This document shows, one piece after another, positions 2,432-61,855 of a stretch of DNA of 64,000 nucleotides. Made by a program: the position numbers and the translations under genes. The stretch comes from Pelagibacteraceae bacterium AG-404-P07 (GTDB taxonomy: Bacteria; Pseudomonadota; Alphaproteobacteria; Pelagibacterales; Pelagibacteraceae): positions 16,001-80,000 of the forward strand of contig QCJE01000001.1 of assembly GCA_003216235.1 (NCBI GenBank), given 5' to 3'. The notes under the pieces were generated by a model. It searched no databases and was not told where the DNA came from. It worked only from the letters and a program-made list of their open reading frames with translations. Numbering within the stretch: position 1 is the first letter of the stretch; the number at the start of each line of letters is the position of its first letter.

Positions 2432-2440
2432 AATAGTATA

Positions 2441-3250: not shown

Positions 3251-3258
3251 TGATTAAA

Positions 3259-41596: not shown

Positions 41597-42693
41597 AACC
41601 AATACCTTTATATTCTCCTACAATTGGCATTAATGAAAAAAAAAATGTTATAAGTTGTTTAGATGAAAAATGGATATCATCAAAAGGAAAATTCATAAAA
41701 TTGTTTGAAAATGAATTTAAGAAATTTACAAATATAAAACACTGCACAACGGCAGTAAATGGGACAGCAGCTTTGCACTTATGTCTTTTAGCGCTCAATA
41801 TTAGACAAAATGATGAAATAATTGTTCCAACATTTACTTATATTGCGTCTGTAAACTGCATTAAATATGTGGGTGCAAAACCTATATTTGTGGACTCAGA
41901 TTTTGGTACAATGCAAATATCAATAAAAGATATAGAGAAGAAAATATCAAAAAAGACAAAAGCTATTATAGTGCCACATCTTTATGGTTATACATGTAAT
42001 CTATCAAAACTTCTGAAATTGAAAAAAAAACACAATTTATACCTTATTGAGGATTGTGCTGAAGCCCTAGGTTCTTTTTATAAAAAAAAACATTTAGGAA
42101 ATTTTGGTGATATCTGCACTTTTAGTTTTTTTGGCAGTAAAACTATTTCTACAGGAGAAGGGGGGATGGTATGTTCAAATAAGAAATTCTTGATAAAGAA
42201 AGTTAAAAAATATAAAGGCCAAGGTTTAAGTGTTACAAATAAAAAAAAATATTACTGGCATGATGTTATTGGTTATAATTATAGAATGACAAATATTTGT
42301 GCATCATTAGGTTTTGCTCAAATTAAAAAAATCTCAAAAATCTTAAAAAGGAAAAAATATATATTCAATTTTTACAAAAAAAATTTAGATGCTAAACATG
42401 TAAAGTTTCCAAATGAAGTGCATGGTCTTGATAACTGCTATTGGCTAACAGTAATTTTTTTTCAATCTAAAAAAATAAATCAAATTATAAATAAAATACT
42501 TAATAAAAATAACATTGAAACTAGACCGACATTTTATCCTATTCACACCATGCCAATGTATAAAAAGAAAAATAATTTCAAAAACGCAATACAATTAAAT
42601 AATCTAGGTTTGTGTTTACCAAGCTATCCTGACATAGAAAATAGACAATTAAAAAAAATATGTAAGATAATTAATGATTATTTTAAAAAATGA
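41593..42693 (+). CDS. DegT/DnrJ/EryC1/StrS aminotransferase, perosamine synthase-like
   Basis: IPLYSPTIGINEKKNVISCLDEKWISSKGKFI; TTAVNGTAALHLCLLAL; FSFFGSKTISTGEGGMVC (PLP Lys). Confidence 0.92.
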   Translation: MKPIPLYSPTIGINEKKNVISCLDEKWISSKGKFIKLFENEFKKFTNIKHCTTAVNGTAALHLCLLALNIRQNDEIIVPTFTYIASVNCIKYVGAKPIFVDSDFGTMQISIKDIEKKISKKTKAIIVPHLYGYTCNLSKLLKLKKKHNLYLIEDCAEALGSFYKKKHLGNFGDICTFSFFGSKTISTGEGGMVCSNKKFLIKKVKKYKGQGLSVTNKKKYYWHDVIGYNYRMTNICASLGFAQIKKISKILKRKKYIFNFYKKNLDAKHVKFPNEVHGLDNCYWLTVIFFQSKKINQIINKILNKNNIETRPTFYPIHTMPMYKKKNNFKNAIQLNNLGLCLPSYPDIENRQLKKICKIINDYFKK

Positions 42694-43259: not shown

Positions 43260-44454
43260 AATTCTCCTAAACCCTTTTTTTTTTTTGAATTGGAATGGTG
43301 GAATTGATGTATTTTTATACTTTCTTAATGGAATAAAAAATTTAGATAGAAAATTTGAATTATTTATAGTTTTACCAAAAAACAATATCAATACTCAAAT
43401 CAAAAAAAAGATATATCCTTTTTATAGTTTGTTTAATTTTTTTTTTAATAAAAAAAAATTTTCTTATAAATGGCCTCTTACGGATGGAGTTAAAACAATT
43501 GAAAATTATATTATAAAAAATGGTATAAGAATTAGAATAATTGATAAAGATTACTCAAATTTAGTATCAACAATTCAAGAAATAAACCCAAAATTAATAT
43601 TTCCTGTAGCTAAACCATTTAAAAGGTATAAAGAAAAAAATATTTTTTATGTTTTCGATTTACAACATGAATACCTTAAGAAATATTTTTCTTCAGATGA
43701 AATTAAAAGTAGAAAATTAGAAATTAAAAAAAATTTAAATAATTGCGATTCTATTATAGTTAATGCAAAAAATACAAAGAAAAATCTTAGGAGTATTTAT
43801 TCAAGAAATTTAATAGGGAAAAAAATTCATTCAATACCTTTTGCTCCAAACATAAATTTAAATAATCTAAAATTCAGGAGAAATATAAAAAAAATTTATA
43901 ATATAAAAAAGAAATATTTTATTGTTTGCAATCAGTTATGGGTACATAAAAATCATAAATTCGTTATTAAAGCATTTAATAATTATTGCAAAAAAGGAGG
44001 AAAAAATGACCTCATATTTACTGGAGACACTCATGATAGAAGAATGCCGAATTTCCTCAATGAAATATTAGATCTTATAAATAAATTTGAACTCAATGAT
44101 AGAATTAAGATATTAGGAAATATTTTGAAAAATGATCAGTTGTTTCTTATGAAAAATTCTGAGGCTTTGATACAAGCAAGTTTATTTGAGGGAGGTCCCG
44201 GAGGTGGATCTGCTTACGAGGCCATGAGCCTAAATGTTCCAATTTTTGCATCTAATATTAAAGTGAATTTAGAAATGGGTAAAAGTAAAAACTTAAAATA
44301 TTTTGATCCTTATAAAGTTGATAAATTAACTTATTTAATGCTCAATTATAAATTTAAAACAAAAAAATATAGTTTGAAAGAAATTAAAAAATTTTCAAAA
44401 AAACAACAAAAAAAAACGACTATTTTTTTTGATAGGATATTTTCAAATTTTTAA
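43249..44454 (+). CDS. Family 4 glycosyltransferase
   Basis: YFIVCNQLWVHKNHKFVIKAF; ILGNILKNDQLFLMKNSEALIQASLFEGGPGGGSAYEAMSLNVPIFAS. Confidence 0.9.
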   Translation: MKNKILLNPFFFLNWNGGIDVFLYFLNGIKNLDRKFELFIVLPKNNINTQIKKKIYPFYSLFNFFFNKKKFSYKWPLTDGVKTIENYIIKNGIRIRIIDKDYSNLVSTIQEINPKLIFPVAKPFKRYKEKNIFYVFDLQHEYLKKYFSSDEIKSRKLEIKKNLNNCDSIIVNAKNTKKNLRSIYSRNLIGKKIHSIPFAPNINLNNLKFRRNIKKIYNIKKKYFIVCNQLWVHKNHKFVIKAFNNYCKKGGKNDLIFTGDTHDRRMPNFLNEILDLINKFELNDRIKILGNILKNDQLFLMKNSEALIQASLFEGGPGGGSAYEAMSLNVPIFASNIKVNLEMGKSKNLKYFDPYKVDKLTYLMLNYKFKTKKYSLKEIKKFSKKQQKKTTIFFDRIFSNF

Positions 44455-45645
44455 ATTAAAAATTTTTTTACATTTACTTAGAAAAAAATTCACATTTCTT
44501 TTTGATAAATCGTTATAAATTGGCAATGAAAGCTCTTGATCATAAAATATCATAGAATTTTTAAAATCTTTTTTTTTAAAAGAATATTTTTTTTTATAAT
44601 AAGGTTGAGAATTTACTGGAATGTAATGTACCTGTAGTTTTATATTAAATTTTAAAAATTTTTTTATGACAAAATCTCTACTTTCTTTTATTTTTTTAAA
44701 ATTGATAAGTAAAGGATATAGATGATACGAATTAAAATTATGAGCAATATTTTTAGGAATTTTAAAAATATCATATTTTGAAAAAAAATTATCATAAACT
44801 TTTGCTATTTTTCTCCTTTTAGAAATAAATTTATCAAGTCTTTTAAGCTGACTTATTCCAAGTGCACAATTAATATCTGGAAGTCTAAAATTATAACCCA
44901 ATTCATTCATTTTATAGCTCCAGTATTTATTATTTTTTCTCTCAATTCCATGTGATCTCAATATTTTTATTCTCTGATGAAGATTTTTATCATTTGATAG
45001 AATGGCTCCACCCTCTCCAGTAGTAATAGCTTTTGCTGGGTGAAAACTTAAAGTTGTTATATCTGCATACTTACAAGCATATCCAGAATTATTATTTATT
45101 CTTGAACCTATTGCATGACAATTGTCATTAATTAATTTTATACCGTATTTTCTCTTTAATCTTAAAAATTTTTTCCAATTTGCTGGCTGACCACCATAAT
45201 CAGTAACTATAGCTGATTTAATTTTTTTATATTTATCTTTTTTTAGTTTTTCCTCAAGTTTATCTGCATCCATGCAGTAATCATTCATATCTATATCTAT
45301 AAAAAGTGGCCTGGCTCCTAAATGTTCAATAGCATTCACAGAAGATAGAAATGTTATTGGTGGTACTGCAATATGATCACCTTTTTTCCAATTTAAAACT
45401 TTACCGGCTAAAATTAGTGCTGATGATCCATTATTGACTACTGTTGCATTCTTACATTTAAATTTTCTTTTCAGCTTAGCTTCAAAAATATTTACTAACG
45501 GTCCTTGAGTAATAAATTCATTTTTTAAAGATTTAACAACTTCATTTATATCAGAATAAGAAATACTCTGTTTTGTGTAGGAAATTAACATTTTATTTTT
45601 CAAAATCGGAAATATTTTTAAAGATAAGTTTTTTAATTTCGTCAA
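44443..45645 (-). CDS. pseC: DegT-family aminotransferase, PseC-like
   Basis: ISYTKQSISYSDINEVVKSLKNEFITQGPLVNIFEAKL; LSFHPAKAITTGEGGAI; next to pseB. Confidence 0.88.
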   Translation of the reverse strand: MTKLKNLSLKIFPILKNKMLISYTKQSISYSDINEVVKSLKNEFITQGPLVNIFEAKLKRKFKCKNATVVNNGSSALILAGKVLNWKKGDHIAVPPITFLSSVNAIEHLGARPLFIDIDMNDYCMDADKLEEKLKKDKYKKIKSAIVTDYGGQPANWKKFLRLKRKYGIKLINDNCHAIGSRINNNSGYACKYADITTLSFHPAKAITTGEGGAILSNDKNLHQRIKILRSHGIERKNNKYWSYKMNELGYNFRLPDINCALGISQLKRLDKFISKRRKIAKVYDNFFSKYDIFKIPKNIAHNFNSYHLYPLLINFKKIKESRDFVIKKFLKFNIKLQVHYIPVNSQPYYKKKYSFKKKDFKNSMIFYDQELSLPIYNDLSKRNVNFFLSKCKKIFNLKI

Positions 45646-46579
45646 CTTTTAAAAAATTTTTATTATTAAAGCTATTATAGGAATTTAGGGAAATGATTCT
45701 TTTATTCTTTTTTAATTTAATGTTTTTTAAAGGATAAAGAATAAATGACTCTTTATTTTCTTTTGAATAATAAAATTCAGAACTATTAACCAATTCTTCG
45801 TGAATCTTTTCGCCTTTTCTAATTCCTATAATATTAATTTTCCTATTCTTATTTATCGCATTTGTTATGTCTAAAATCTTATAAGATGGGCATTTTGGTA
45901 TAAATATTTCTTGACCTGTCATTTTTTGAATACAATTATCTACAAACTTAACTGCCTGGTCCAATGTAATATTAAATCTTGTCATATTCTTATCTGTTAC
46001 AGTAAAATTTTTATTTTGTTGGTTTTGTCTTAATAAAATTGGAATTACCGAGCCTCTACTTCCCATCACGTTTCCATATCTAACTACACTAAATTTACAT
46101 CTCGACTTACCTTTAAATAAATTTGCAGAAATAAAAAGTTTTTCAGCAGTTAGTTTTGTTGAACCATATAAGTTCAGTGGAGACACAGCTTTATCTGTAC
46201 TTACTAAAATTGTTTTATTGATATTTTTGTTTATACAAACTTCAATTATATTTTGAGTACCTACGATGTTAGTTTGAACCGTTTCAAATGGGTTATACTC
46301 TGTTGTTGGGACTTGTTTTAATGCCGCGGAATGTATTACTACATCAATATCCTCATTAATTGCCCATTGTAATCTATTTTTATCTCTAACATCTCCAATA
46401 TAAAATCTAAAAATACTCAAATTTGATTTAACAAAAGAAGATTCTTTCATTAGTTGTTGTTTAAATTCGTCTCTACTAAAAACTATAATTTTCTTTGCTA
46501 ATTTTTTTTTGATTAATAAACTAATAAATTTCTTTGCAAATGAACCTGTCCCCCCAGTAATAAAATAATTTTTTTTCAT
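45593..46579 (-). CDS. pseB: UDP-GlcNAc 4,6-dehydratase (inverting), PseB-like
   Basis: YFITGGTGSFAKKFISLL; VIHSAALKQVPTTEYNPFE; LVSTDKAVSPLNLYGSTKL; VVRYGNVMGSRGSVIP. Confidence 0.92.
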   Translation of the reverse strand: MKKNYFITGGTGSFAKKFISLLIKKKLAKKIIVFSRDEFKQQLMKESSFVKSNLSIFRFYIGDVRDKNRLQWAINEDIDVVIHSAALKQVPTTEYNPFETVQTNIVGTQNIIEVCINKNINKTILVSTDKAVSPLNLYGSTKLTAEKLFISANLFKGKSRCKFSVVRYGNVMGSRGSVIPILLRQNQQNKNFTVTDKNMTRFNITLDQAVKFVDNCIQKMTGQEIFIPKCPSYKILDITNAINKNRKINIIGIRKGEKIHEELVNSSEFYYSKENKESFILYPLKNIKLKKNKRIISLNSYNSFNNKNFLKVDEIKKLIFKNISDFEK

Positions 46580-46587
46580 ATCAAAAT

Positions 46588-48297
46588 TTAATTTAATTCC
46601 AAAATTTTTTTATCTTTAATTTTATATTTTTTATCACATAATAAAAAATCTTTTTCATCATGAGATATGATTATAATTGTTTTATTCTTTTTTAGTTTAT
46701 TTATCAAATTAAGAATTTGGTTATAATTTTTACTATCAAGACTATTAAATGATTCATCAAAAATAATTATTGATGAATTATTATATAATGCTCTTGCAAT
46801 ACCGATTCTTTGCGCTTGCCCACCTGATATTCTTGCTCCAAGTTCACCAAGAGACTCTTCTTTTTTTTTTGTAAATTCCTGAATATTTAAATTGCTCAAT
46901 ATTTCATCTATTAATTTATGATTTATTTTACTTTGATCATTTTCCAATGCAATATTCTCAAAAATATTTGAGTCAAAAATATAAATAGATTGCTGAATAT
47001 AACTTATCTGATTTTTCCAATTATTTTCTTCATGAATGTCTTGCTCTTCTCCATCTAAATATATAGTTCCATTATCTATTTTTAATAAACCACAAATAAT
47101 ATCAACTAAAGTACTTTTTCCACAGCCACTTTCCCCTTGAATTCCAATGCACGAATTTTTTTTTATTAATAAATTTAAATTTTCAAAAATTTTTTGATCA
47201 TTATAATTAAAATTAACATCTCTTAATTCTAAAGAATCATTAAACACTAAATCTTTTTTTTGTAATTGTATTTGATTTTTTTTATCTAATTCAACTTCTT
47301 TTAAGACAGGTACTAAATAATCTGCTGCTGTATTAGAAAAATTCATCCTCTGGTATGATCTAATTAAAGATATCACATTTGGCATAATCCTAAAAGAGGA
47401 AGCAACAAAAATTCCAATTGTTGCCAAATGTTGTTGTGAATTATCTTGATTAAGTAACACCACAATCAAGAATAAAAATACCACCATTACTTCAAGTATT
47501 AGTCTTGGAATATTTGAAATTAAACTTCTTGTAACATTTAAGTTAGCCATTCGATTTAATCTTTTTTTTAGATCTTTTCTAAAGAAATTTTTTTTCTGAT
47601 AAACGGTAAGTTCTCTTATTCCTTCAAATATTTGTTTTACATTATCAATCATTTTGTAATTCATTGATCTTCTTTGACTTCCAAAAAAAATTATTTTTTC
47701 TCTAAAGATTAATGCAAATATGAAATAAAATAATATCGAAAATAATATAAGATAAACTGTATATTCAAAATTTACATTAAATAAAAATATAGAAAAAAAT
47801 AAAATTGTTATTAAGTTCAATAATATTGTCAAAATTGGTTGAACAAAATTTGTATTAAGTTGTTTAGCTTCCATGAGTATTTCTCTTACAAAAAAAGAAG
47901 AGTCTTTATTTGATAGCCAATCATATCTTTTTGATAGAAAACTTTCTAAAATTTGCTCCTGATGGAAAATAGTTAAATATGAAAAATAATATGAAGAAAT
48001 TTTCATATAGTAAAACATAAATAAGTTTTTTATTGAAAATAAAAGAAATGTAAGAATTAGAAAAAAAATTAGCTCATTTTCTATACCAAAAAAAGTATAA
48101 AGATGATCCATCTTATCACTTAAAAAAAAATTAGTTTCACCCATTATTAGCTGATTGAAAATTGGAAATAATGAGCCTATTGATAATACATCAACAATAG
48201 CGGCTATAATCATTAATGCACAAACATAAAATAATCTCTTTCTTTGAAAGTTAGTGACAATTATAAATTTTTTTATAGTTTCAGTTAAATTCATCAT
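46588..48297 (-). CDS. ABC transporter, permease plus ATPase, PglK-like flippase
   Basis: TM domain with FFGSQRRSMNYKMIDNVKQIFEGIREL; Walker A GESGCGKST; signature ISGGQAQRIGIARAL; IIFDESFNSLD. Confidence 0.92.
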   Translation of the reverse strand: MMNLTETIKKFIIVTNFQRKRLFYVCALMIIAAIVDVLSIGSLFPIFNQLIMGETNFFLSDKMDHLYTFFGIENELIFFLILTFLLFSIKNLFMFYYMKISSYYFSYLTIFHQEQILESFLSKRYDWLSNKDSSFFVREILMEAKQLNTNFVQPILTILLNLITILFFSIFLFNVNFEYTVYLILFSILFYFIFALIFREKIIFFGSQRRSMNYKMIDNVKQIFEGIRELTVYQKKNFFRKDLKKRLNRMANLNVTRSLISNIPRLILEVMVVFLFLIVVLLNQDNSQQHLATIGIFVASSFRIMPNVISLIRSYQRMNFSNTAADYLVPVLKEVELDKKNQIQLQKKDLVFNDSLELRDVNFNYNDQKIFENLNLLIKKNSCIGIQGESGCGKSTLVDIICGLLKIDNGTIYLDGEEQDIHEENNWKNQISYIQQSIYIFDSNIFENIALENDQSKINHKLIDEILSNLNIQEFTKKKEESLGELGARISGGQAQRIGIARALYNNSSIIIFDESFNSLDSKNYNQILNLINKLKKNKTIIIISHDEKDFLLCDKKYKIKDKKILELN

Positions 48298-49484
48298 GTT
48301 TTTAATTCCTCAAACAATCTTAATATCTTTTTTTTTGAATAACTTCGTTTCAAAAAATATTTTTTAAAATTTTTTTGTTGATTCAACCATAGTCTTGAAT
48401 TTGTCCTATATAAGGCTAAATTTATTTTTTCTTTAAAATCCTCTATTGAATTAGTTCTTTTAATTAATCCAAGTTCTTCATTATAATTTAATACCTTGAT
48501 ATTCTCTTTGTCTATTGGAAAGCTTATTACCGGAGATTTATAAACTAATCCATATATTGCAGAAGATGTTACTAAATTACAAATTAATAAATTAATATCT
48601 TTACACAAGTTTATTATTAATTTTTTACTTTCAATAAAATTTTTATATTTATTTTTATATTTATTTATCAGCGTATCTAATTTCTTTGAATAAACAAATG
48701 GGTGCGTTTTGACAATTATTTTTATATTTTTTAATTTAATAAAATAATCAAAAATCTCTTCTGCATGATTAATAAAATATTTATAACCCGGTTGAGCTGG
48801 CTGACCAATCGCTAGCAGAATTGTTTTTTTTTTTGATTTTTGAGTTTTATTTTTTTTTCTAATTTCATTAAACTGAGGAACTCCAATAGATTTTATTTTT
48901 TTTTTATCTATAAAATTTTTCCAATAATTTTTTTCTTTATCTGAAATTGTTAACAATAAGTCTCCATATAATTTTTTATTTTTATTAATTTTTTTTGTAT
49001 TAGAGATTATTTGTGGTGAACTTGGAAAAAAGATAATTTTTGGTCTATCTTTTAAATAGTAAAAATTTTTAATCCATATTGAAAAATTATTATATTCAGT
49101 GAATAAATACTCAATATCTTTAATTGACCCTATATCTAGTTTATTGATTAATTTAGTTGGATCATGCAAGTCGTAATTAATTTTATTCTTAAAATTATTT
49201 ATAATTCTAAAATTTAATTTTTGTAAAATATGATTAATAATTTTATAAATTGGAAAATGAAATTTTTTTTGAATAAAGAAATTATTGTTTATCTTTTGCC
49301 ATTCCTCAAAAAGTTCAGTTTTAGATTTTAAATTTTCATATGATCTATTATTTAAAAAAATCGTGTTGATTTCAAATTCCAAAGATAAATCTTTTAGAAT
49401 AGTTTGAAAATATTCGAACTCTAAAAATCCTCTTCTAACAATAAGCAAGATTTTTTTTTTCATCTTTTTATTACTTTTTCCCAT
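48294..49484 (-). CDS. Putative GT-B-like surface polysaccharide biosynthesis protein
   Basis: ILLAIGQPAQPGYKYF; IIVKTHPFVYSKKL; LLICNLVTSSAIYGLVYKSPVISFP. Confidence 0.4.
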   Translation of the reverse strand: MGKSNKKMKKKILLIVRRGFLEFEYFQTILKDLSLEFEINTIFLNNRSYENLKSKTELFEEWQKINNNFFIQKKFHFPIYKIINHILQKLNFRIINNFKNKINYDLHDPTKLINKLDIGSIKDIEYLFTEYNNFSIWIKNFYYLKDRPKIIFFPSSPQIISNTKKINKNKKLYGDLLLTISDKEKNYWKNFIDKKKIKSIGVPQFNEIRKKNKTQKSKKKTILLAIGQPAQPGYKYFINHAEEIFDYFIKLKNIKIIVKTHPFVYSKKLDTLINKYKNKYKNFIESKKLIINLCKDINLLICNLVTSSAIYGLVYKSPVISFPIDKENIKVLNYNEELGLIKRTNSIEDFKEKINLALYRTNSRLWLNQQKNFKKYFLKRSYSKKKILRLFEELKT

Positions 49485-49788
49485 TTGATTCTTCCTTTAA
49501 ATCCTTTTTTAATTCTTCATATTCTAAGGCTTTTCTTTGCATAAAATTTAGCGTTAATTTTGTTTTTTCGGATATACCTTTGGGAGTAAGGATATATATA
49601 TAATTTAATTTATTTTTATTTTTTTTGAAGTTTGAGAATTTTATTAAACCTTTGTCCTTTAAACTTTTCAGACAATAATTTAATTTTCCAAGACTAAAGC
49701 CTAATTTTTTAGCTAATTCTCTTTGACTTGTCTTTGGATTGTCATTAATTGATCTTAGAATATCTAGTTTTTTGCTTTCGTTATCCAT
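49471..49788 (-). CDS. MarR-family EPS-associated transcriptional regulator
   Basis: wHTH ILRSINDNPKTSQRELAKKLGFSLGKLNYCLKSLKDKGLIK. Confidence 0.9.
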   Translation of the reverse strand: MDNESKKLDILRSINDNPKTSQRELAKKLGFSLGKLNYCLKSLKDKGLIKFSNFKKNKNKLNYIYILTPKGISEKTKLTLNFMQRKALEYEELKKDLKEESNGKK

Positions 49789-49864: not shown

Positions 49865-51241
49865 ATGAAATATAAAAATAATCGGAAAAATCCAAAAGTT
49901 TCTATCGTAATAAGAACAAAAAATGAAGAGCAATGGATTGAGCAATGCTTAATAAAGATCAAAAAACAGACTTATAGTAATTTTGAGATAATAATCGTAG
50001 ATAATAAATCTAAAGACTCAACATTAAACAAAATCTCTAAATTTAAAGTTAAACTAATTAAGATTAATAAGTTTTTTCCTGGTGATGCTTTAAACAAAGG
50101 TATTCAAAAGTCCTCTGGTGAAATTATTGTTTGTTTATCCGCCCATTGTATTCCAGAAAATAATGATTGGTTATTAAAGTTAGTCCAAAATTTCAAAGAC
50201 AAAAATGTTGCTGGTGTTTATGGAAGACAGCTACCACTTGCTTATTCATCTGATTTTGACAAACGAGATCTTTATACATTTTTTGGATTAGAAAAGAGAA
50301 TTCAAAGAAAAGATACATTCTTTCATAATGCAAATAGTGCAATTAGAAAAACCCTTTGGAAAAAAATACCTTTTGATAAAAATGTTGAACATATAGAAGA
50401 TCGTATTTGGGCGCACAAAGTAATTAACAAAGGGTATAAATTAATTTATGAACCTGAGGCAGCAGTTTTTCATTGGCATGGAATAAATCAAAATATGGAT
50501 GAAAAAAGGTGTTCTGAAATAGTAAGTATTTTAGAAAATTTAGACAATATTTATAGGCCTAAAGTAAGTACAAATTTAAAAAATATGAATACAATCGCAA
50601 TAGTTCCACAAAGGAATATATCTTTAACTCATAACAATAAAAATTATTTAATTACAAAAACAATACAAGATTTAAAAAAATCAAAATATATTTCAGATGT
50701 TTATATTGCGACAGATAATAAAAATACAAAAAATATTTCTTCAAAAAATGGTGCTAAAGTTCCATTCTTAAGACCAAAAAATCTTTCACAAGACTATATT
50801 GATATTGGAACAATAGCCAAATTTTATTTAAAAAAATTAGAAAAAAATAAAATTTTCGCCGATTATATAGTCTTGGCTACAGAAAACTTTCCTTTTAGGG
50901 ATTATAAAATTTTTGATAAAATGTTAGAACAAATTCATAAAAATAATTCAGATATTGTTTACGCCGTTAAAGAGGAGAAAGGTACAATTTTCAAACAAAT
51001 AGATAAAAAAATTAACAAAGTAAATGATGGGTTGATGCCTAAAAAAATAAGAAATATTAAAAATTTATTTTCAAGGATCGGTTTATCATTTATAGCAAAA
51101 GCAAATTTAATTAGATCTGGAAATTTTAATACAAAAAATATTGGTATTTATAATGTTAAAGACCATTTTAGTTTTTTAGAAGTAAATAAAAATAATATTA
51201 AAAATATAAAAATTAAAAATCTCTTAAACGAAATATTTTAA
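49865..51241 (+). CDS. Family 2 glycosyltransferase fused to a degenerate acylneuraminate cytidylyltransferase-like domain
   Basis: N-term VSIVIRTKNEEQWIEQCLIKIKKQTYSNFEIIIVDNKSKDST; C-term IAIVPQRNISLTHNNKNYLITKTIQDLKKSKYISDVYIATDNKNTKNISSKNGAKVPFLRPKNLSQ. Confidence 0.8.
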   Translation: MKYKNNRKNPKVSIVIRTKNEEQWIEQCLIKIKKQTYSNFEIIIVDNKSKDSTLNKISKFKVKLIKINKFFPGDALNKGIQKSSGEIIVCLSAHCIPENNDWLLKLVQNFKDKNVAGVYGRQLPLAYSSDFDKRDLYTFFGLEKRIQRKDTFFHNANSAIRKTLWKKIPFDKNVEHIEDRIWAHKVINKGYKLIYEPEAAVFHWHGINQNMDEKRCSEIVSILENLDNIYRPKVSTNLKNMNTIAIVPQRNISLTHNNKNYLITKTIQDLKKSKYISDVYIATDNKNTKNISSKNGAKVPFLRPKNLSQDYIDIGTIAKFYLKKLEKNKIFADYIVLATENFPFRDYKIFDKMLEQIHKNNSDIVYAVKEEKGTIFKQIDKKINKVNDGLMPKKIRNIKNLFSRIGLSFIAKANLIRSGNFNTKNIGIYNVKDHFSFLEVNKNNIKNIKIKNLLNEIF

Positions 51242-51942
51242 ATTATTTTTTTTAATCTCATTTTATATAATGTATCAACAATCTTAAGATCTTTTTTATC
51301 ATGGATTTCAAAACTAGTTAAAATATCATCATTTTCAATAATCTTTATATTATCTCCTATTCTATTACCTTTTCTCCATAAATATGATCTGGATACACAA
51401 GTTAGAGCAGTATCTTCTCTAATTATTTTTTGCCTAACTTGCCTTGAAGAATATTTTTTCATCCATGGTTTCAATCTAATCCATTTATTTTTCTTTTTTT
51501 CCCAAAAATTTTTATGAGTTACATGTCCTGAAAAAACACTTTCAACTTTCTTTTCTCTTTTTAAAATATCTAACCCTTTTTTTATCCAATTGATATTTCT
51601 AAAAATATCAGTAGCACCCAAAAAAACACAAAATTCAAATTTTTGTCCCGTCAATTTTTCATATCTTAATAAAGTATATTTTAAACCATCTTCTGTAGTA
51701 GACAAATCACCTGCTAGTTTCTTCGGTCTCATAAATGGAATTTCAGCACCATAAGATTTTGCAACCTTAGCAATCTGTTTATCATCAGTGGAAACTATAA
51801 TATGATCTATAACACCAGATTGAATTGCATCAGTTATTGGATAATATATAAGTGGTTTTCCATTAATTTTTCTAAGATTTTTTTTTTTTAATCCTTTAGA
51901 TCCACCTCTAGCTAAAATAATACATATAGTTTTATTTTTCAT
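51238..51942 (-). CDS. Acylneuraminate cytidylyltransferase family protein
   Basis: ICIILARGGSKGLKKKNLRKINGKPLIYYPITDAI; IIVSTDDKQIAKVAKSYGAEIPFMRP. Confidence 0.92.
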   Translation of the reverse strand: MKNKTICIILARGGSKGLKKKNLRKINGKPLIYYPITDAIQSGVIDHIIVSTDDKQIAKVAKSYGAEIPFMRPKKLAGDLSTTEDGLKYTLLRYEKLTGQKFEFCVFLGATDIFRNINWIKKGLDILKREKKVESVFSGHVTHKNFWEKKKNKWIRLKPWMKKYSSRQVRQKIIREDTALTCVSRSYLWRKGNRIGDNIKIIENDDILTSFEIHDKKDLKIVDTLYKMRLKKII

Positions 51943-52080: not shown

Positions 52081-53100
52081 ATGAACGAATATTTTAAAGA
52101 ATACTATTGTCCTTCATGCAACGAAAAAACAGATACAAAAAAATTAAAGTTTGAATATAAAACCAATAGATACATAAAATATTTAAATAATCGGTTTAAT
52201 TTAAACGATAAATTAATAATTGAGAATACTGAACTTTCACAATGTTTAAATTGTGATCTAATTTTTTTTAATAAATGGTTAAAGGAATATTATATTAAAA
52301 TTTTATATTCAGAGACTAGACATCATAGTGGTTGGAGTCGTTTTTTTATGATTTTAAGTAAAAATCAAAAATTTTTGAATAATAGATTGATGATACTTAA
52401 ATTTATGCATAATAGATTTAATAATATTTATAGCTATGCTGAATTTGGTTGCCCCTTTATGGGATTTTTATTAATTTTCAGTCTAATTAAAAATAAAGAA
52501 AAAAGTTTAGTTTATAATATTAGTAATGTTTTTTTAAAAAAAAATATTGATGACACAAGGTATTATAAAAAGTTATCAATTTTTTATAACCTTATTGGAT
52601 ACTTAAATATAATTATATTAAAAACCTATAATTTTTTTAATAATTTAAAAAATAAATCTTTATTCAAAAATTTTGATTCGAAAATTAACCCTCAAAAATT
52701 ATATTTTATAAAAAATACAACTGAACGAAATTGGAACCTCGGTTGTAATATTATGAACATTAATTGTAAAAATTTAATAAATATGGAAAATAGTATCAAT
52801 TTTGTTGAACTTAAGGATTTAAGTGAAAAAATTGATTTAGTCTACTTAGATAATTCAATAGATCATACAGAGAATATTTCTAAAGTTTTAAATAAAATAC
52901 TCAATAATTCTAATAATATTTTAATTCAAGCACATGGAATTAATGATGGTGTGCAACATTCTTTTTTTTTAACATTAAATTATCTTAAAAAAATTTCAAT
53001 TAAATTGAATTTTAAGGTTACAGTACTAAATAAAGATTTGATAAAAATTGACAACGATCCTAATCTTGAAGAAAAATTTTACCTCCTTGAAAAAAATTAA
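52081..53100 (+). CDS. Hypothetical protein, two-CxxC N-terminal motif and methyltransferase-like layout
   Basis: YYCPSCNEKT...LSQCLNCDLIFF; no convincing SAM-binding motif I. Confidence 0.45.
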   Translation: MNEYFKEYYCPSCNEKTDTKKLKFEYKTNRYIKYLNNRFNLNDKLIIENTELSQCLNCDLIFFNKWLKEYYIKILYSETRHHSGWSRFFMILSKNQKFLNNRLMILKFMHNRFNNIYSYAEFGCPFMGFLLIFSLIKNKEKSLVYNISNVFLKKNIDDTRYYKKLSIFYNLIGYLNIIILKTYNFFNNLKNKSLFKNFDSKINPQKLYFIKNTTERNWNLGCNIMNINCKNLINMENSINFVELKDLSEKIDLVYLDNSIDHTENISKVLNKILNNSNNILIQAHGINDGVQHSFFLTLNYLKKISIKLNFKVTVLNKDLIKIDNDPNLEEKFYLLEKN

Positions 53101-54269: not shown

Positions 54270-55157
54270 TCACAAAATTCTTCTTTTACTTATCTGATTA
54301 GAAATTATATTCATTTCTTTCATAAGATTACGAAATTCTTTAAAATCTATAGGTTGCAATGGATCAACAGCTGAGTTGTGTGGGTCTGGATGGACTTCCA
54401 GCATAACTCCATCTGCACCAGATGCTATACTCGCTAAGGCCATAGGTCTTACCCATTGTCTCCAAAAAGTTGCGTGTGAAGGATCTACAATTATGGGTAA
54501 ATGCGTAACCTCTTGAGCAGCTGGCACAACTTGTAAATCTAATAGAAATCGTGATGTTGATCTATGTGTATGAGGAACTGAAACTCCTCTTTCACATAGA
54601 ATTACTTTTTTATTTCCCTCAATTAACACATACTCTGCGGCACCTAACCAATCTCTTAATGAAGAACCATAATGTCGTTTAATCATTATAGGTTTTTTTG
54701 TTTTCGCACATGCGGTAATTAAAGGATAATTTTGCATATTTCTAGATCCTATCTGAAGTATATCAGCAACATCGCAAACTAAATCTAAATATTTTTCCTC
54801 CATAATTTCGGTAATAACAGGAATGTTGTATTTATCTTTTGCTTCTGCCAACCACTTTATTCCATCTTCTCTTGTTTCGTTATATTTTTTATTTCTATAT
54901 GGAAAAGTTAACGGCTTGAAAGCTCCACCTCGCAAAAAGTGTGCTCCACTAGATTTCACATTTTTTGCAACATCTAATATAAGCTTCTTACTTTCTACCA
55001 TATTTGGTCCAGCAAAAACTGGTATTGTATTTCCACCAAACTCAACTCCAGCTATCTTAAATTTACTTTTATGATTTTTGTTTTTCTTAGCGGCTAATGG
55101 AAATTTAGTCTTTAAATCTTCAATTGAGATATCTTTTCCTGGAAATTTATTATCCAT
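54270..55157 (-). CDS. DAHP synthase type I-beta / KDO8P synthase superfamily protein (divergent)
   Basis: VFAGPNMVES, AHFLRGGAFKPLTFPY, ADILQIGSRNMQNYPLI, VILCERGVS, IIVDPSHATF, GVMLEVHPDP. Confidence 0.9.
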   Translation of the reverse strand: MDNKFPGKDISIEDLKTKFPLAAKKNKNHKSKFKIAGVEFGGNTIPVFAGPNMVESKKLILDVAKNVKSSGAHFLRGGAFKPLTFPYRNKKYNETREDGIKWLAEAKDKYNIPVITEIMEEKYLDLVCDVADILQIGSRNMQNYPLITACAKTKKPIMIKRHYGSSLRDWLGAAEYVLIEGNKKVILCERGVSVPHTHRSTSRFLLDLQVVPAAQEVTHLPIIVDPSHATFWRQWVRPMALASIASGADGVMLEVHPDPHNSAVDPLQPIDFKEFRNLMKEMNIISNQISKRRIL

Positions 55158-55162
55158 TCTTT

Positions 55163-56887
55163 TTATTTCTTTTTAGCTTTTTTAATTAAAAATGTGTCCA
55201 TTATTAGATAATCTATTTTATATTTTCTAAAGCAATCTATAGCATCCTTTGGGCTATTTACAATTGGTTGGCCTTTAATATTAAAAGAAGTGTTTAATAA
55301 AATAGGAATTCCAGTTATTTTTTTAAATTCATTTATTAACTTCCAAAAATTAAGGTTTAAATTTTTTGAAACACTTTGAGCCCGACAACTTTCGTCTACA
55401 TGAACCACTGCTGGAATGGATTTCTTTTTATTCTTTTTTACTTTGCAAGCAATCAACATATGAGGACTAGATTGTTTTATAGAGAAAAAATCATATAAAT
55501 TTTCATCTAATACTGCTGGTGCAAATGGTCTGAAGTACTCTCTGAACTTAACATTTTTATTTATATGATCTCTCATTTTTTCTGGAAAAGGTTTGCATAA
55601 AATACTCCTATTCCCTAAAGCTCTTGGACCAAACTCAGTTGCTCCTTGATACCATCCAATTATTTTTCCTTCAGAAATTAGTTTTGCAGTTTGTAAAAAA
55701 ATATCATTTTTATAATCTTTAAAATTAATTTTTTTTTTAATTAAAATTTTTTGTATTTCTTTTTTTGATGTTCTTGATCCTAAATAAAAATCATAATTTT
55801 TTTTAAATTTAAAATTTTTATGATATTTAGAATGACTATACAAACATGTGCCGTAAGCTACACCGGCATCACCACTTGCTGGTTGAACAAATATCTTCTT
55901 AAAAAGTTTTGATTTTTCAATTTTTCCATTTAAAGAGCAATTAAGCCCAACGCCACCAGAAATACATAAAAAATTAGATTTTGTTCTCTTTTTTAATATC
56001 TTTAATTGGTACAATACAATTTCTTCGAGTCTATCTTGAAGAGCAGCAGCAATATTTTTATGATGTAATGATATTTTAGATCCAGGTTTTCTTTTCTTAC
56101 CAAAAATTTTATTAAATTTATCACTTACCCACTTATTTCTTACTTTGTGGTAATCTATCCAGTCTTTATTAATAATGTATTTTAATGGATCCTTTTTATC
56201 AATTTTTATAATTTCCCTAAAAAAGTCAATATATCTTTTATTTGAATTTCTTAATTTGGCTTTTGAATTGCCGTACGGGGCAAGCCCCATTATTATTCCC
56301 TCATCACAATAAATATTCCAGCCTAAATGAAATGTAATAGCTGTATAAATCAAACCTAGTGAGTCGGGATACTTATTTTCTTGATGAATTACCTTGATCT
56401 TATTTTTGTTACCAATAGCAAATAGAGCTGAATGGATTTCACCTATCCCGTCATAAGAAATTATTAATGATCTATCAAAGCCACTGGGGTAAAAAGTGCT
56501 TGCCAAATGGCAAAGGTGATGTTCGTTGAAATCAATCTTTTTTTTAAAATTAAGTTTTTTCCTTAAAAAATTTTCAGTTTCACTTAATTTCTTTATTCTA
56601 TCAATATCATTGATTAAAAAGTTTATTCTATCATTGTTGTTTACTGCAAGTTTAATATATTTTTCTTTAATTTGAAGATAAGGATCATTTGAGAATGATA
56701 TTAAATCGATATCATTTAATTTTAATTTGGCAATTTTCAAACAATCATTTATTGCCTCCATTGGAAAATTTCTTGAATGTTTTATATAATCATATCTTTC
56801 TTGTTCACATGCTGCTACTACTTTTCCTTTTATTGAAATACAGGCAGATGTGTCATGGCCTCCATAATTTAATCCTAAAATATTCAT
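55163..56887 (-). CDS. NodU/CmcH-family carbamoyltransferase
   Basis: NILGLNYGGHDTSACI; EQERYDYIKHSRNFP; EHHLCHLASTFYPSGFD; GWYQGATEFGPRALGNRSILC; ILLNTSFNIKGQPIVNSP. Confidence 0.95.
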   Translation of the reverse strand: MNILGLNYGGHDTSACISIKGKVVAACEQERYDYIKHSRNFPMEAINDCLKIAKLKLNDIDLISFSNDPYLQIKEKYIKLAVNNNDRINFLINDIDRIKKLSETENFLRKKLNFKKKIDFNEHHLCHLASTFYPSGFDRSLIISYDGIGEIHSALFAIGNKNKIKVIHQENKYPDSLGLIYTAITFHLGWNIYCDEGIIMGLAPYGNSKAKLRNSNKRYIDFFREIIKIDKKDPLKYIINKDWIDYHKVRNKWVSDKFNKIFGKKRKPGSKISLHHKNIAAALQDRLEEIVLYQLKILKKRTKSNFLCISGGVGLNCSLNGKIEKSKLFKKIFVQPASGDAGVAYGTCLYSHSKYHKNFKFKKNYDFYLGSRTSKKEIQKILIKKKINFKDYKNDIFLQTAKLISEGKIIGWYQGATEFGPRALGNRSILCKPFPEKMRDHINKNVKFREYFRPFAPAVLDENLYDFFSIKQSSPHMLIACKVKKNKKKSIPAVVHVDESCRAQSVSKNLNLNFWKLINEFKKITGIPILLNTSFNIKGQPIVNSPKDAIDCFRKYKIDYLIMDTFLIKKAKKK

Positions 56888-57894
56888 TATCTATTTTGTT
56901 TTAACATAAATTTTTGAATTTTCTTATAATTTTTATATTCATTTACTTTTGCAAATGCAATTACTGCTTGGTCTAAATTCATTTCACTGCCATTAAAAAT
57001 TTTGTTATTAAATGATTCACAAATTTTTTGAATGACTGTTTTTTTTGGGTTATAAATGATATCAAATACTTTTACGTTGTTATTATTTTTAAAGAATTTG
57101 TAAGAATTTGAAAAATTTTCCTGAATTAAAAATTCATTTTTAGAAATAAATTGTTTTTCATCCATAGAATGAACGTATTTAATTTTTTTAATACTAGACA
57201 ATGGTGAAAAGTATTTAAGATTGTAAAAATTTTTTTCCTTATTAAACCAGCAATCAAAACCCACTGAAGTGGCATTAATAACAAGTTCAACATCTTTTAA
57301 ATTTCTCAATTTACCGAAATTTTCAATTATATTTAGATTTTTATAACTCATGTTATTAAAAAATTTTCTTAAATTATTTTGGCTTCTATTAAATAAATAA
57401 ATAGGATTTTTCTTAAATATCTTTAAAACAGATATTACAGCTGCTTTTCCGACACCTCCAATACCCAGAACAAGAATCTTATTATTTTTTTTTATCCGTA
57501 TTCTTTTTAAGGTCTTACAACATCCCTCAAAATCAGTATTAAAACCAAAAAGTTTTCCATTTTTTAACTTCTTAATAGTATTAATTGATCCAATTATTTT
57601 TGAATTTTCATCTATTTTATCTAAATATTTCATTATTTTGGACTTGTATGGAATGGTAACTGATCCACCTATAAATTTATCATCTGACTTAAGTATTTTA
57701 ACCAATTTTTCTAAATTTTTCTCTTTTACATCAAAAGGAATCATCGAAAGTGACATTTTTAATCTTTTAAACGCTTTATTCCATAATTTTGGTGATCTAG
57801 CTCCAGAAGAAGGATTTGATCCAATTATACAAGCGAACTTATTTTTATAAGTTTCTTTAATTTTATTTGATAAAAATTTATTATATCTTTTCAT
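56887..57894 (-). CDS. Shikimate/quinate dehydrogenase-like protein (AroE family, divergent)
   Basis: CIIGSNPSSGARSPKLWNKAF; FIGGSVTIPYKSKIMKYLD; KIIGSINTIKKLKNGKLFGFNTDFEGC; ILVLGIGGVGKAAVISVL. Confidence 0.88.
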   Translation of the reverse strand: MKRYNKFLSNKIKETYKNKFACIIGSNPSSGARSPKLWNKAFKRLKMSLSMIPFDVKEKNLEKLVKILKSDDKFIGGSVTIPYKSKIMKYLDKIDENSKIIGSINTIKKLKNGKLFGFNTDFEGCCKTLKRIRIKKNNKILVLGIGGVGKAAVISVLKIFKKNPIYLFNRSQNNLRKFFNNMSYKNLNIIENFGKLRNLKDVELVINATSVGFDCWFNKEKNFYNLKYFSPLSSIKKIKYVHSMDEKQFISKNEFLIQENFSNSYKFFKNNNNVKVFDIIYNPKKTVIQKICESFNNKIFNGSEMNLDQAVIAFAKVNEYKNYKKIQKFMLKQNR

Positions 57895-57983
57895 ATATTT
57901 TTTTAGCCCTTTTACTATTTAATTCAAAATTAAGTAACAAAAACTTTAAAATAAGTTATTTCAAAATGAGAATATTAAATAAG

Positions 57984-59060
57984 TTAATTATTTTTTCCTA
58001 ATTTTTTTGATTTTTTATTTTCGTTCATTTTGACCCATTTTTTTTTTTCACAACTATAATAAATTGAATGTATCAATTTAGTTGTCATCAATGCTTCATG
58101 ACAACTTACAACGGGATTAATAATATTTCTTTTTAATCTTCTGATTGTCTCATTAATTAAAAATACATGATTGTTACCATATCCATTTTGGACCTTCTCA
58201 TCGTACTTTTTTTTTATCTTTGATAATTTTATATTCAACAATTTCATTTTAAAATCTTTAATTTGATTTAATGCTATACCACTAATAACTATTCTGCCCT
58301 TTTCTCCCAAAACTGTAACAGAAGCCTCAAGATCTAATGGCCTAGTGGCAGTAGTAGCTTCAATAGTGCCATTAAATCCATTAGAAAATTTTACCAAAAC
58401 ATGCATTGTATCTTCAGCTTGTAATCTATTTAGTCTGTTTGAGCTTACGGCACATACTGATTTTATTGGGCCAAAAAGCCATCTCATAACATCTACATGA
58501 TGTATTGCTTGCTGGTTAATTACACCGCCATCATCTTTCCATTTTCCGTGCCACTCATCATTATAATAATCCTGGTATCTGCACCATAAAAGCTTTATTG
58601 AAACTGAAACAATTTTTCCAAGTTTTTTTTTTTCAACTAATTCTTTTAAAAATTGAATAGATTTGTTAAATCTATTTTGAAAAACAACTCCACACATAAC
58701 ATGGTTCTTTTTAGATAATTGTTCTAAAAAAAGAGTTTTATCAGGTGTCATTGTAAGTGGTTTTTCACAAAGAACATTAATTTTTTTTTTTATTAAAAAT
58801 TTAGCTATCTCAAAATGAGAACCAGAGCTTGTCAAAATAAAAACTAAATCAATATTTGTATAAAATTTAGGGTCTCTATAATTTTTAAAAGCCTTTATTT
58901 TTAAAGATTTAGCATAATTCTTACTTTTTATAATTGATTTATCACAAACCGAGACTAATTGAGCTTCTCTGAAAAATTTTTTGTTAAAAACTTTTTTTTT
59001 ATAATGTTCAGCAACTCGTCCACAACCTATCAAGCCAATTTTCAAAAATTTTTTTTTCAT
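57984..59060 (-). CDS. Gfo/Idh/MocA family oxidoreductase
   Basis: KIGLIGCGRVAEHYKKKV; KINVLCEKPLTMTPDKT; GVINQQAIHHVDVMRWLFG. Confidence 0.95.
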   Translation of the reverse strand: MKKKFLKIGLIGCGRVAEHYKKKVFNKKFFREAQLVSVCDKSIIKSKNYAKSLKIKAFKNYRDPKFYTNIDLVFILTSSGSHFEIAKFLIKKKINVLCEKPLTMTPDKTLFLEQLSKKNHVMCGVVFQNRFNKSIQFLKELVEKKKLGKIVSVSIKLLWCRYQDYYNDEWHGKWKDDGGVINQQAIHHVDVMRWLFGPIKSVCAVSSNRLNRLQAEDTMHVLVKFSNGFNGTIEATTATRPLDLEASVTVLGEKGRIVISGIALNQIKDFKMKLLNIKLSKIKKKYDEKVQNGYGNNHVFLINETIRRLKRNIINPVVSCHEALMTTKLIHSIYYSCEKKKWVKMNENKKSKKLGKNN

Positions 59061-59074
59061 CTAAAAATTATCTA

Positions 59075-59734
59075 TTATTTTTTCGCCAAAGCAAACATAC
59101 CCTGGGATTTCCCTTTTAAAAAATTTGGAATTAACTTGTTAGTGCCGCTAAATGGTAAAAAATAATTAGCTATAAAAAACCTAAATTTACCTTTATACCA
59201 CCACTTTGATTTACATCTTAAACTAGGCATTAACATTACTTTATTAAATCCTTTTATTTCAAGTAATTGTTTTAATGAATCTGGAGAATAAGGTTTCACA
59301 TGGGTAACATCATCAAAAAAATTATTTTTGCTATATTTCCAATTTGGTGTAGATAAAAATAAAAATGACCCTGGTTTTAAAACTCTCATTATTTCATTTA
59401 AAAATAAATTTGGATCTTTTAAATGTTCTATTACTGCAAGACTAACAATCAAATCAAAACTATTATTGCCAAACTTAAATTTATCTTTTTCAAAATCAAG
59501 CTCTTCTATATCAAGAGAAGAATAAGAGATTTCTCTACTATTTATTGAGTCCCTTAAAAAATTATCTCCTGAACCAAGGTCTAAAATTTTATGACCTTTA
59601 TCTAAATTGAAACCATAAAATTCTCTCAACAAAAATTGAATTGTATAAAGTTCCCTCTCAGCAAAAATTTTCCTTGTATTGTCTTTTTGATCGACCTCAA
59701 TTTTGTGATGAAAATATTCTTTTTTGAGAGACAT
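59075..59734 (-). CDS. Class I SAM-dependent methyltransferase
   Basis: HKILDLGSGDNFLRDSI; FDLIVSLAVIEHLKDPNLFLNEIMRVLKPGSFLFLSTPN. Confidence 0.9.
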   Translation of the reverse strand: MSLKKEYFHHKIEVDQKDNTRKIFAERELYTIQFLLREFYGFNLDKGHKILDLGSGDNFLRDSINSREISYSSLDIEELDFEKDKFKFGNNSFDLIVSLAVIEHLKDPNLFLNEIMRVLKPGSFLFLSTPNWKYSKNNFFDDVTHVKPYSPDSLKQLLEIKGFNKVMLMPSLRCKSKWWYKGKFRFFIANYFLPFSGTNKLIPNFLKGKSQGMFALAKK

Positions 59735-59739
59735 TTTGT

Positions 59740-60432
59740 TTATTTATAATTTTTTTTATTAATTATTTTATACTGAAGATTTGCCATTTTAAGGTCTTGT
59801 ATTTCATTAATATCAACTGATCTCATTCTATCAATCTTTAAAAAAGTTGTTTTTTTCGTCAAATTACCTTTTTTATTTAATAATGATAATGTTTTATAGA
59901 AATAAAAACTTCCTGTATCATGATATAAATTCTGTAAATCTTGAGATCTATATTTGGAGTATTTTTTAAATAAAAACTCAATCCAATTATTTCCTCTCTT
60001 TTTAAATGATCTATAAGGAGAATAATTGTAATCTGTAATTGGAATTAAATAATCTGCATTTGTTTTTTTTATTTTTTTATACGCCTTAATTAAATCTTTA
60101 GTAGTAGCCAAGACTGCTGTAGGATATAAACAGCAATGATATTTTACTTTTTCAGAAGAAATTTTTTTTATTGCATCTATAATAACCTCTGTTGAGCTTG
60201 ATTTATCATCTGAAATATTTTTATTTCTTTTAAAGGGTACTTCAGCTCCATATTTTTTTGCAATTTTTGCAATTTGACTATCATCAGTTGAAACAATAAT
60301 CCTTGAAAACAATTTACTTTTTTTTGCTAAATTAATTGCATAAAAAATTATAGGTTTTCCATTAAAAATAATTATATTTTTTTTTTTTATCCTCTTACTT
60401 TTACCTCTTGCTGGTATAATGCAAATAGTCAT
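59740..60432 (-). CDS. pseF: CMP-sugar synthetase, PseF-like
   Basis: ICIIPARGKSKRIKKKNI; IIVSTDDSQIAKIAKKYGAEVPFKR; CCLYPTAVL; HDTGSFYFYK. Confidence 0.87.
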   Translation of the reverse strand: MTICIIPARGKSKRIKKKNIIIFNGKPIIFYAINLAKKSKLFSRIIVSTDDSQIAKIAKKYGAEVPFKRNKNISDDKSSSTEVIIDAIKKISSEKVKYHCCLYPTAVLATTKDLIKAYKKIKKTNADYLIPITDYNYSPYRSFKKRGNNWIEFLFKKYSKYRSQDLQNLYHDTGSFYFYKTLSLLNKKGNLTKKTTFLKIDRMRSVDINEIQDLKMANLQYKIINKKNYK

Positions 60433-60435
60433 TGA

Positions 60436-61281
60436 TTAATATTGGATAGTTTTAAAATAATTAGAGTTTAATTGAAATGCTTTTCTTAAAGTTTTCAAAC
60501 TTCTACTTTTTGTTTTCAAATTAAATTTAGGAGATATTGATGTAAAACCAAATAGTTCTTTTTGTGTTTTATTCAAAAGCTTAAATATTTTAGGACCACA
60601 TTTCGTCCAGTCTGTTGAGGGTTTAATCCACCATCTTTTATAATGACATAAAATTCCCCATCTCTTTTTTGAATTTATGTTTTTTCCTATTTGATGCCAA
60701 GTGTGACCAAGAAAAAAAATTGCGGATCCTTTTTTTGCTTCAACAAATTTAGAATTTCTTTTTATCATTTTAGAATATTTATTATGATTTTGTATACGAA
60801 CTCCAGAGATATGACTTTTAGGCCAAATACGTGTTGCACCATTTTCTTTTGTAAATTGATTAAGACAATAACACACAACCACATCTGAAGTATTTTCAGA
60901 ATATCTTGAGGGCAAATGAGAATCGATATGAACTAAAGTGTTATATTTTGATTTTACATTTAGACTTGCGCTAGCCTGACAATTATCCAATATGAATGTT
61001 TCTTTAAAAATTTCTTTTAGTATTTTCATTGTTAAATTCTTATCGATCACATCTAAATAACTTTTAGGATCCCTTAAAGGTAAATCTCTTATTACTAATT
61101 GGCCATTATGAGAGTTTTCATCAATAAAATTTTTATTTTTAAAAATCCTTTTTTTTAAATTTTCCAAATTTTTAATTTTTCTATTACAATCTTGAGGACT
61201 AATAATATTTTCAATAACACAAAAACCATTCTTAAATAGTTCCTTAACAATTTTTTTTACAATTAATCTATTATTTTTCAT
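60436..61281 (-). CDS. Phytanoyl-CoA dioxygenase-like Fe(II)/2-oxoglutarate oxygenase
   Basis: HIDSHLPSRYSENTSDVVVCYCLNQFTKENGATRIWPKSH; GSAIFFLGHTWHQIGKN (HxD...H). Confidence 0.85.
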   Translation of the reverse strand: MKNNRLIVKKIVKELFKNGFCVIENIISPQDCNRKIKNLENLKKRIFKNKNFIDENSHNGQLVIRDLPLRDPKSYLDVIDKNLTMKILKEIFKETFILDNCQASASLNVKSKYNTLVHIDSHLPSRYSENTSDVVVCYCLNQFTKENGATRIWPKSHISGVRIQNHNKYSKMIKRNSKFVEAKKGSAIFFLGHTWHQIGKNINSKKRWGILCHYKRWWIKPSTDWTKCGPKIFKLLNKTQKELFGFTSISPKFNLKTKSRSLKTLRKAFQLNSNYFKTIQY

Positions 61282-61855
61282 TATCTGAGAAATATTTTCT
61301 ATAAATTTGTTTTTTTGTACTCTTCCATTTAGACTTTTTTAAGACGAGATATACAGCATTTATTATTTGTTTATTCAAAAATTTTTTTCGAGAATAGTTT
61401 GTAAATGAGATTTCTTTAAATCCAAATTTTTTATGTAATCTTGATATTTCTAAATTATTTCCCAAAACATAACAATATAACTCGTTCAATTTAAATATTT
61501 TAAAAAGAAATTCAATTGCTTTGTATTCAATGGATGCACCAAGTCCTATAAAATTTTTCTTATTTGATATATAAAAAGACCATTCACCACATAAAATTTT
61601 TTTATTAAAATTATTGAAGCCCAAGCCCCCTATTAACTGATCGTGATAATTGATAGTATAAAAGAAATTTGTCTTGGAAGATTTAACTTTATTGCACCAT
61701 AAAGAATGCTCAGAAATTAAAATTTTATGCTGAGTTTTCATTTTTTTTCTAATTTTTTCCTCATTTCTGATTTGTCTAATAAGTTTTATTTCTAAAGAAG
61801 TACATCTTTTTAAAGATTTAAATTCAATGTTATTCAATACTGTTTCAAGATTCAT
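61271..61855 (-). CDS. pseH: GNAT acetyltransferase, PseH-like
   Basis: IRQIRNEEKIRKKM...ISEHSLWCNKVK; IGLGASIEYKAIEFLFKIFKLNELYCYVLGNNLEISRLHKKFGF. Confidence 0.8.
   Translation of the reverse strand: MNLETVLNNIEFKSLKRCTSLEIKLIRQIRNEEKIRKKMKTQHKILISEHSLWCNKVKSSKTNFFYTINYHDQLIGGLGFNNFNKKILCGEWSFYISNKKNFIGLGASIEYKAIEFLFKIFKLNELYCYVLGNNLEISRLHKKFGFKEISFTNYSRKKFLNKQIINAVYLVLKKSKWKSTKKQIYRKYFSDNEK

Follow-up and report, generated by a model that had tools for sequence, protein, structure and literature searches.

The stretch of DNA analysed here, referred to as the window, comprises 64,000 nucleotides of the SAR11 bacterium Pelagibacteraceae bacterium AG-404-P07 (positions 16001-80000 of contig C1 of assembly G000, which is 937 kb in size and 79% complete). 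It contains a cluster of genes encoding a synthase similar to 3-deoxy-D-arabino-heptulosonate 7-phosphate (DAHP) synthases (DAHPS), a carbamoyltransferase, an AroE-like dehydrogenase and a Gfo/Idh/MocA oxidoreductase. The four open reading frames (ORFs), predicted previously, were confirmed at the positions listed in Table 1; they are all on the minus strand and are separated by -1 to 89 bp. The DegT aminotransferases, methyltransferase, PseF-like cytidine monophosphate (CMP)-sugar synthetase and PhyH oxygenase that the original prediction placed in the same island are all present. On a comparison of gene content only, the window is in line with hypervariable region 2 (HVR2) or O-chain biosynthetic cluster of SAR11, the variable island located between the 23S and 5S rRNA genes (PMC2217521, PMC11898729).

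Table 1. Genes of the polysaccharide island discussed in the text; positions are those of the window.
Gene product	Role	Position	Strand	Evidence
GT2 (family 2) glycosyltransferase fused to a degenerate cytidylyltransferase	core	49865..51241	+	PF00535 1.8e-26, PF02348 7e-8
CMP-sugar synthetase (CTP_transf_3)	core	51238..51942	-	PF02348 1.7e-24; NeuA PDB matches 3e-22; intact ARGGSKG...KN CTP-binding motif
DAHP synthase (type I-beta)-like phosphoenolpyruvate (PEP)-condensing synthase	core	54270..55157	-	PF00793 (DAHP_synth_1) 2.6e-53
NodU/CmcH-type carbamoyltransferase	accessory	55163..56887	-	PF02543 and PF16861 (Carbam_trans_N/C 4e-55, 4e-69)
AroE-like dehydrogenase	core, module-specific clade	56887..57894	-	PF08501 (Shikimate_dh_N) 1.8e-19
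Gfo/Idh/MocA oxidoreductase	core	57984..59060	-	GFO_IDH_MocA and C-terminal domains (Pfam); PDB sequence match 3q2i 4.9e-48
S-adenosylmethionine methyltransferase	probable accessory	59075..59734	-	Pfam; homologues adjoin module in L040, L042
PseF-like CMP-sugar synthetase		59740..60432	-	TIGR03584 1.7e-75; PseF equivalog 253.5 bits vs cutoff 205.7
PhyH-family 2-oxoglutarate oxygenase	accessory	60436..61281	-	PF05721 2.3e-15; 77% identical gene in same block of G130 (L042)
DegT aminotransferases		41593-42693, 44443-45645		present in window

Orthologues of the DAHPS-like gene, defined within SAR11 by a threshold of E <= 1e-60, are present in 12 of the 397 genomes of the order Pelagibacterales (9/151 among those of high quality). 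A module AroE gene adjoins the DAHPS-like gene or lies within about 2.5 kb of it in all 12 SAR11 carriers, which excludes a chance association. Outside SAR11, orthologues that are 60-74% identical occur in five other alphaproteobacterial genomes belonging to four families, those of Prochlorococcus (3 of 266 genomes of the genus) are 68-71% identical, and one that is 44% identical is found in a metagenome-assembled genome titled Deltaproteobacteria and placed in the Myxococcota. No relatives were found on the viral contigs searched, and the plasmid matches listed are all ordinary type I-beta DAHPS, at most 46% identical. Two candidates were rejected as members of the module: the AroE match of G121, which lies in the canonical aroE locus by synteny, and the match in G616 (42%), which is a canonical enzyme with the KPR motif.

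The neighbourhoods of 31 sampled loci, some of them contigs of 6-10 kb in which a missing neighbour coincides with a contig cut by its own ends, define the composition of the module. AroE is present in 29/31, Gfo/Idh in 27/31, a CMP-sugar synthetase of family PF02348 in about 29/31 and the fusion of a GT2 glycosyltransferase to a cytidylyltransferase in 24/31. The genes commonly follow the order CMP-sugar synthetase, GT2 fusion, Gfo/Idh, DAHPS, AroE (for example at L041, L076, L078, L107, L112, L119 and L120), and in many loci the synthetase copies directly beside the module are 52-72% identical. The core therefore consists of these five genes. The four-gene set proposed originally holds for the DAHPS-like, AroE-like and Gfo/Idh genes, but it omitted the synthetase and the GT2 fusion and included the carbamoyltransferase, which we reject as a core gene and regard as accessory because it is directly adjacent in only 2/31 loci. 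These are the window and a locus of G024 (L045), whose enzyme is 31% identical and is encoded between the DAHPS and AroE genes. The PhyH, PseF-like and methyltransferase genes recur next to the module of G130 (L042) with their order unchanged, and this block may be accessory to the module.

The closest solved structures of the DAHPS-like protein are type I-beta DAHP synthases (1zco of P. furiosus, 1vs1 of A. pernix and 1rzm of T. maritima), which have the same fold, about 40% identity and the same PEP-site residues. Its AlphaFold2 model (pLDDT 86.8) matches 1vs1 with a TM-score of 0.83 and 41% identity in the structural alignment. The PEP-site residues R76, K81, R139, K160 and R190 are invariant among 22 aligned module copies, as are H228, E254 and D265. 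Judged by its sequence, the module synthase is a member of the DAHPS I-beta lineage and lies outside the KdsA and NeuB families. However, the module copies form a clade of their own: in maximum-likelihood trees, which were quick reconstructions without bootstrap, 31 module DAHPS are split from eight canonical I-beta enzymes with an SH-aLRT value of 99 (six plasmid I-beta DAHPS served as the outgroup, and L084 is on a long branch). Several further features set them apart from type I-beta enzymes, in addition to their surface-sugar context: a conserved N-terminal segment, a three-residue insertion with an invariant HTH after the CERG motif, and a metal-binding Asp loop reading VDPLQ or nearly so instead of the SDGPQ type of canonical enzymes. 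There are also two substitutions in the active site. All 31 module copies read KPL in place of the KPR found in every canonical enzyme compared, and Asn takes the place of the metal-ligand Cys (GPC to GPN) in 30/31, the Myxococcota copy alone having Cys.

In DAHPS, the arginine of the KPR motif holds the phosphate of the acceptor, erythrose 4-phosphate. Its loss suggests an unphosphorylated acceptor; with the pocket altered in this way, erythrose 4-phosphate is less likely as the substrate than a compound lacking a terminal phosphate. Work on 3-deoxy-D-manno-octulosonate 8-phosphate (KDO8P) synthase has shown that metal independence requires replacement of the Cys by Asn, along with further changes in the loop that carries the metal-binding Asp (PMC3052366); by comparison, the module synthase probably works without a metal ion. 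It thereby resembles metal-independent KdsA, which has Asn at the position of the metal Cys and also belongs to a CMP-ulosonate pathway, but their identity in structural alignments is only 20-24%, and the assembly holds a separate PF00793 match on contig C10 that shares about 27% identity with the window synthase and appears to be KdsA-like. NeuB, PseI and LegI are alike in another respect: they condense PEP with an unphosphorylated sugar, and a PF02348 enzyme then activates the resulting acid with CMP. Nevertheless, the module synthase matches NeuB weakly (24 bits), and true NeuB genes are located elsewhere in the same genome.

Similar results were obtained for the AroE-like protein, for which 26 module copies are split from 12 canonical SAR11 AroE sequences with an SH-aLRT value of 100. 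The AlphaFold2 model (pLDDT 92.5) has shikimate dehydrogenase 1nvt as its top PDB match, and both the structural and the sequence relatives include 5-ketofructose reductase (7cok), a member of the AroE family whose substrate is a sugar. Module AroE has the fold and the catalytic Lys/Asp pair of AroE, YdiB and 5-ketofructose reductase; K84, N105, D121 and Q309, corresponding to the catalytic Lys/Asp, Asn and Gln, are invariant. It differs from shikimate and quinate dehydrogenases in that its gene lies beside the module synthase and that the carboxylate motif HSLSP reads GARSP, so that the first Ser is replaced by Ala and the second is kept.

By gene content and motifs, the module combines a PEP-dependent synthase with a PF02348 synthetase whose CTP-binding motif is intact. 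The domain fused to the GT2 glycosyltransferase aligns with the CMP-sugar synthetase, but its CTP-binding motif is eroded in all copies. A GT2-cytidylyltransferase fusion is an unusual arrangement, and it tracks the module. The window also contains PseB-, PseC-, PseH- and PseF-like genes (44443-46579, 61271-61855 and 59740-60432), two NeuB matches are present on contig C6 (G000:C6:5216-8035), and the best-scoring types for the DegT enzymes are PseC and LegC. This genome therefore probably has a separate, split pathway of the pseudaminic/legionaminic type. Such a pathway explains the presence of the DegT enzymes and perhaps that of the synthetase at 59740-60432; the latter belongs either to that pathway or to the accessory genes of the module.

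Automated models label the DAHPS-like and AroE-like genes as enzymes of aromatic biosynthesis, which would be correct if ordinary or feedback-insensitive genes of that pathway lay in the island by chance. The original prediction held that primary aromatic biosynthesis does not explain this context, and our results bear this out. The same assembly encodes a full class II DAHP synthase (C7:37140-38453; PF01474, 691.7 bits), so that a separate primary DAHPS was indeed found. For AroE, the answer is indirect. The window gene is the sole PF08501 match in this incomplete assembly, but an AroE match is present in 359/397 genomes of the order, the window protein shares only about 35% identity with canonical SAR11 AroE (about 260-285 aa), and module carriers such as G153, G107, G192, G128, G116 and G130 hold a canonical aroE besides the module copy. 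The usual neighbour gene of the canonical aroE locus was likewise not found in this assembly, and the canonical aroE was therefore probably lost to an assembly gap. Together with the linkage to surface-sugar genes kept across phyla, the specific clades and the residue changes, these observations led us to reject primary aromatic metabolism, which we consider highly improbable. The automatic labels "DAHP synthase" and "shikimate dehydrogenase" are misleading for the whole clade.

A PEP-condensing synthase encoded together with a CMP-sugar synthetase and a glycosyltransferase, within a surface-polysaccharide island, is suggestive of a pathway to a CMP-activated 3-deoxy-2-ulosonic acid. We therefore favour, with a probability of about 0.6, the view that the genes form a mobile biosynthetic module for such an acid, destined for the surface glycan made by the O-chain island. 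From the gene set we infer the following order of reactions. The DAHPS-like enzyme would join PEP to an aldehyde other than erythrose 4-phosphate, probably a sugar with no terminal phosphate, to give the 3-deoxy-2-ulosonic acid. The AroE-like and Gfo/Idh enzymes would then work as paired dehydrogenases, either resetting or oxidising one hydroxyl group. Preferably, AroE would act on the ulosonate at O-4, since the ring form (pyranose) of a 3-deoxy-ulosonate is similar to quinate (a carboxyl and a hydroxyl group on one carbon, followed by CH2 and CHOH), and Gfo/Idh would reduce from the opposite face or alter the acceptor beforehand. The synthetase encoded at 51238-51942 would activate the acid, and the GT2 fusion would transfer the sugar, perhaps using its inactive cytidylyltransferase-like domain to recognise the CMP-sugar or the acid. 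In this genome, accessory genes would finally add carbamoyl and perhaps methyl groups; carbamoylation is likely, because G024 also has a carbamoyltransferase gene between its DAHPS and AroE genes.

Several points weigh against this scheme. The reactions of the module and the acid itself are predictions from sequence, and the proposed action of AroE on O-4 is based on the likeness to quinate. The loss of the KPR arginine is suggestive but falls short of proof for an unphosphorylated acceptor, and metal independence is not general, since the Myxococcota copy retains the Cys. Moreover, members of the GT2 family do not usually transfer CMP-sugars, and NeuB-type synthases are encoded elsewhere in module genomes, so that the nearby CMP-sugar synthetase could serve those at some loci.

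The original prediction drew an analogy with the rifamycin 3-amino-5-hydroxybenzoic acid (AHBA) cluster, in which members of the DAHPS, AroE and oxidoreductase families (RifH/RifI/RifL) are also found together. The joint presence of these genes, and of DegT enzymes in the island, could indicate an aminoshikimate/AHBA-like or cyclitol pathway in which DAHPS and AroE supply a carbocyclic building block. Such a route is unlikely because a dedicated dehydroquinate (DHQ) synthase is lacking. As noted originally, there is no DHQ synthase-like gene in the 64-kb window, and the assembly has a single match to PF01761, located on a different contig (C6). No second DHQ synthase was found in any SAR11 module genome, and among the genes that recur next to the module there was neither a DHQ synthase (including aminoDHQ synthase), an AHBA synthase nor a kinase. 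The DegT enzymes, by their best scores of the PseC and LegC types, fit pseudaminic/legionaminic synthesis and not an AHBA synthase, and the conserved CMP-sugar synthetase, a gene that distinguishes the module from the rifamycin cluster, fits ulosonic acids better than cyclitols. We therefore rejected the analogy and give the carbocyclic route little credence. Of the dedicated pathway envisaged originally, leading to a modified cyclitol or 3-deoxy-ulosonate, the cyclitol half falls, while its separation from primary metabolism stands and the 3-deoxy-ulosonate half gains indirect support from the CMP-sugar synthetase and the PEP site.

The retained fold and catalytic residues of AroE, together with the primary DHQ synthase, would also be compatible with a scheme in which dehydroquinate or dehydroshikimate is drawn from primary metabolism and converted by AroE and Gfo/Idh into a quinate- or shikimate-like glycan decoration, the DAHPS-like enzyme only raising flux. 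We consider this improbable: an enzyme that has lost the KPR arginine in every copy is not a likely flux-boosting DAHP synthase, the AroE copy lacks the first serine of the carboxylate site, and the conserved CMP-sugar synthetase is left unexplained. Somewhat less unlikely is that the synthase, in keeping with its sequence and fold being nearest to type I-beta DAHPS, still accepts erythrose 4-phosphate or a different sugar phosphate, and that the resulting C7 or C8 ulosonate (e.g., 3-deoxy-heptulosonic acid) is activated after a phosphatase step encoded by an unlinked gene. The universal Arg-to-Leu change at the site for the acceptor phosphate is difficult to reconcile with this, and no phosphatase was seen among the annotated neighbours.

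If a CMP-activated 3-deoxy-2-ulosonic acid is indeed the product, the module might represent a third route to such compounds that relies on neither KdsA nor NeuB. Its synthase, derived from DAHPS and working without a metal, would be paired with an AroE-derived dehydrogenase for which the ulosonate ring mimics quinate, and the product of the route would be an undescribed monosaccharide common to SAR11 and Prochlorococcus. We put this forward tentatively. The parts belong to known families; within the portion of the literature covered by our searches, their combination and the altered residues have not been described. Searches for DAHPS and shikimate dehydrogenase in surface-polysaccharide or nonulosonic clusters returned nothing relevant, and the papers on the SAR11 island (PMC2217521, PMC11898729) do not mention shikimate, heptulosonate or DAHP. 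The biosynthesis of heptulosaric acid (Dha) is undefined in plants (PMC12168206); we considered this acid as the product but kept it as a lead only, because no module gene has an obvious role in oxidising C7. SAR11 and Prochlorococcus rank with the most abundant cells of the ocean. Almost nothing is known of the chemistry of their surface glycans, the first structures that phages and grazers encounter. A module that is shared across phyla and contains modified enzymes of the aromatic pathway predicts a specific class of acidic sugar that can be searched for in glycans and reconstituted in vitro. In addition, a natural Cys-to-Asn enzyme of the DAHPS lineage would allow the metal question of KDO8P synthase to be asked in a second enzyme family.

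Other genes were observed near the module in individual genomes. L073 encodes a pyruvate-kinase barrel-domain protein of 334 aa near the module synthase (9455-10459; PF00224, 2e-46), possibly tied to PEP or pyruvate chemistry, and an ORF of similar size occupies the same place in L075 (9454-10455). A protein of the dihydrodipicolinate synthase/aldolase family is encoded near the module in three genomes (L042 6090-7082, L038 2557-3552 and L084 9056-10027). Common to the module genomes of L039 (12382-16134) and L040 (4474-8186) is a CMP-sugar synthetase-methyltransferase fusion, after which a second Gfo/Idh protein and an FMN-dependent hydroxyacid dehydrogenase are encoded, and in L040 a radical SAM-SPASM protein and a class I/II aminotransferase are encoded between the module DAHPS and AroE genes (1785-3600). 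Within the window, four island proteins of 339-542 aa have no Pfam match (39968-41596, 30667-31713, 52081-53100 and 48294-49484), and a stand-alone winged-helix protein of 105 aa (MarR/HTH_24-like) is encoded at 49471-49788, within the polysaccharide island.

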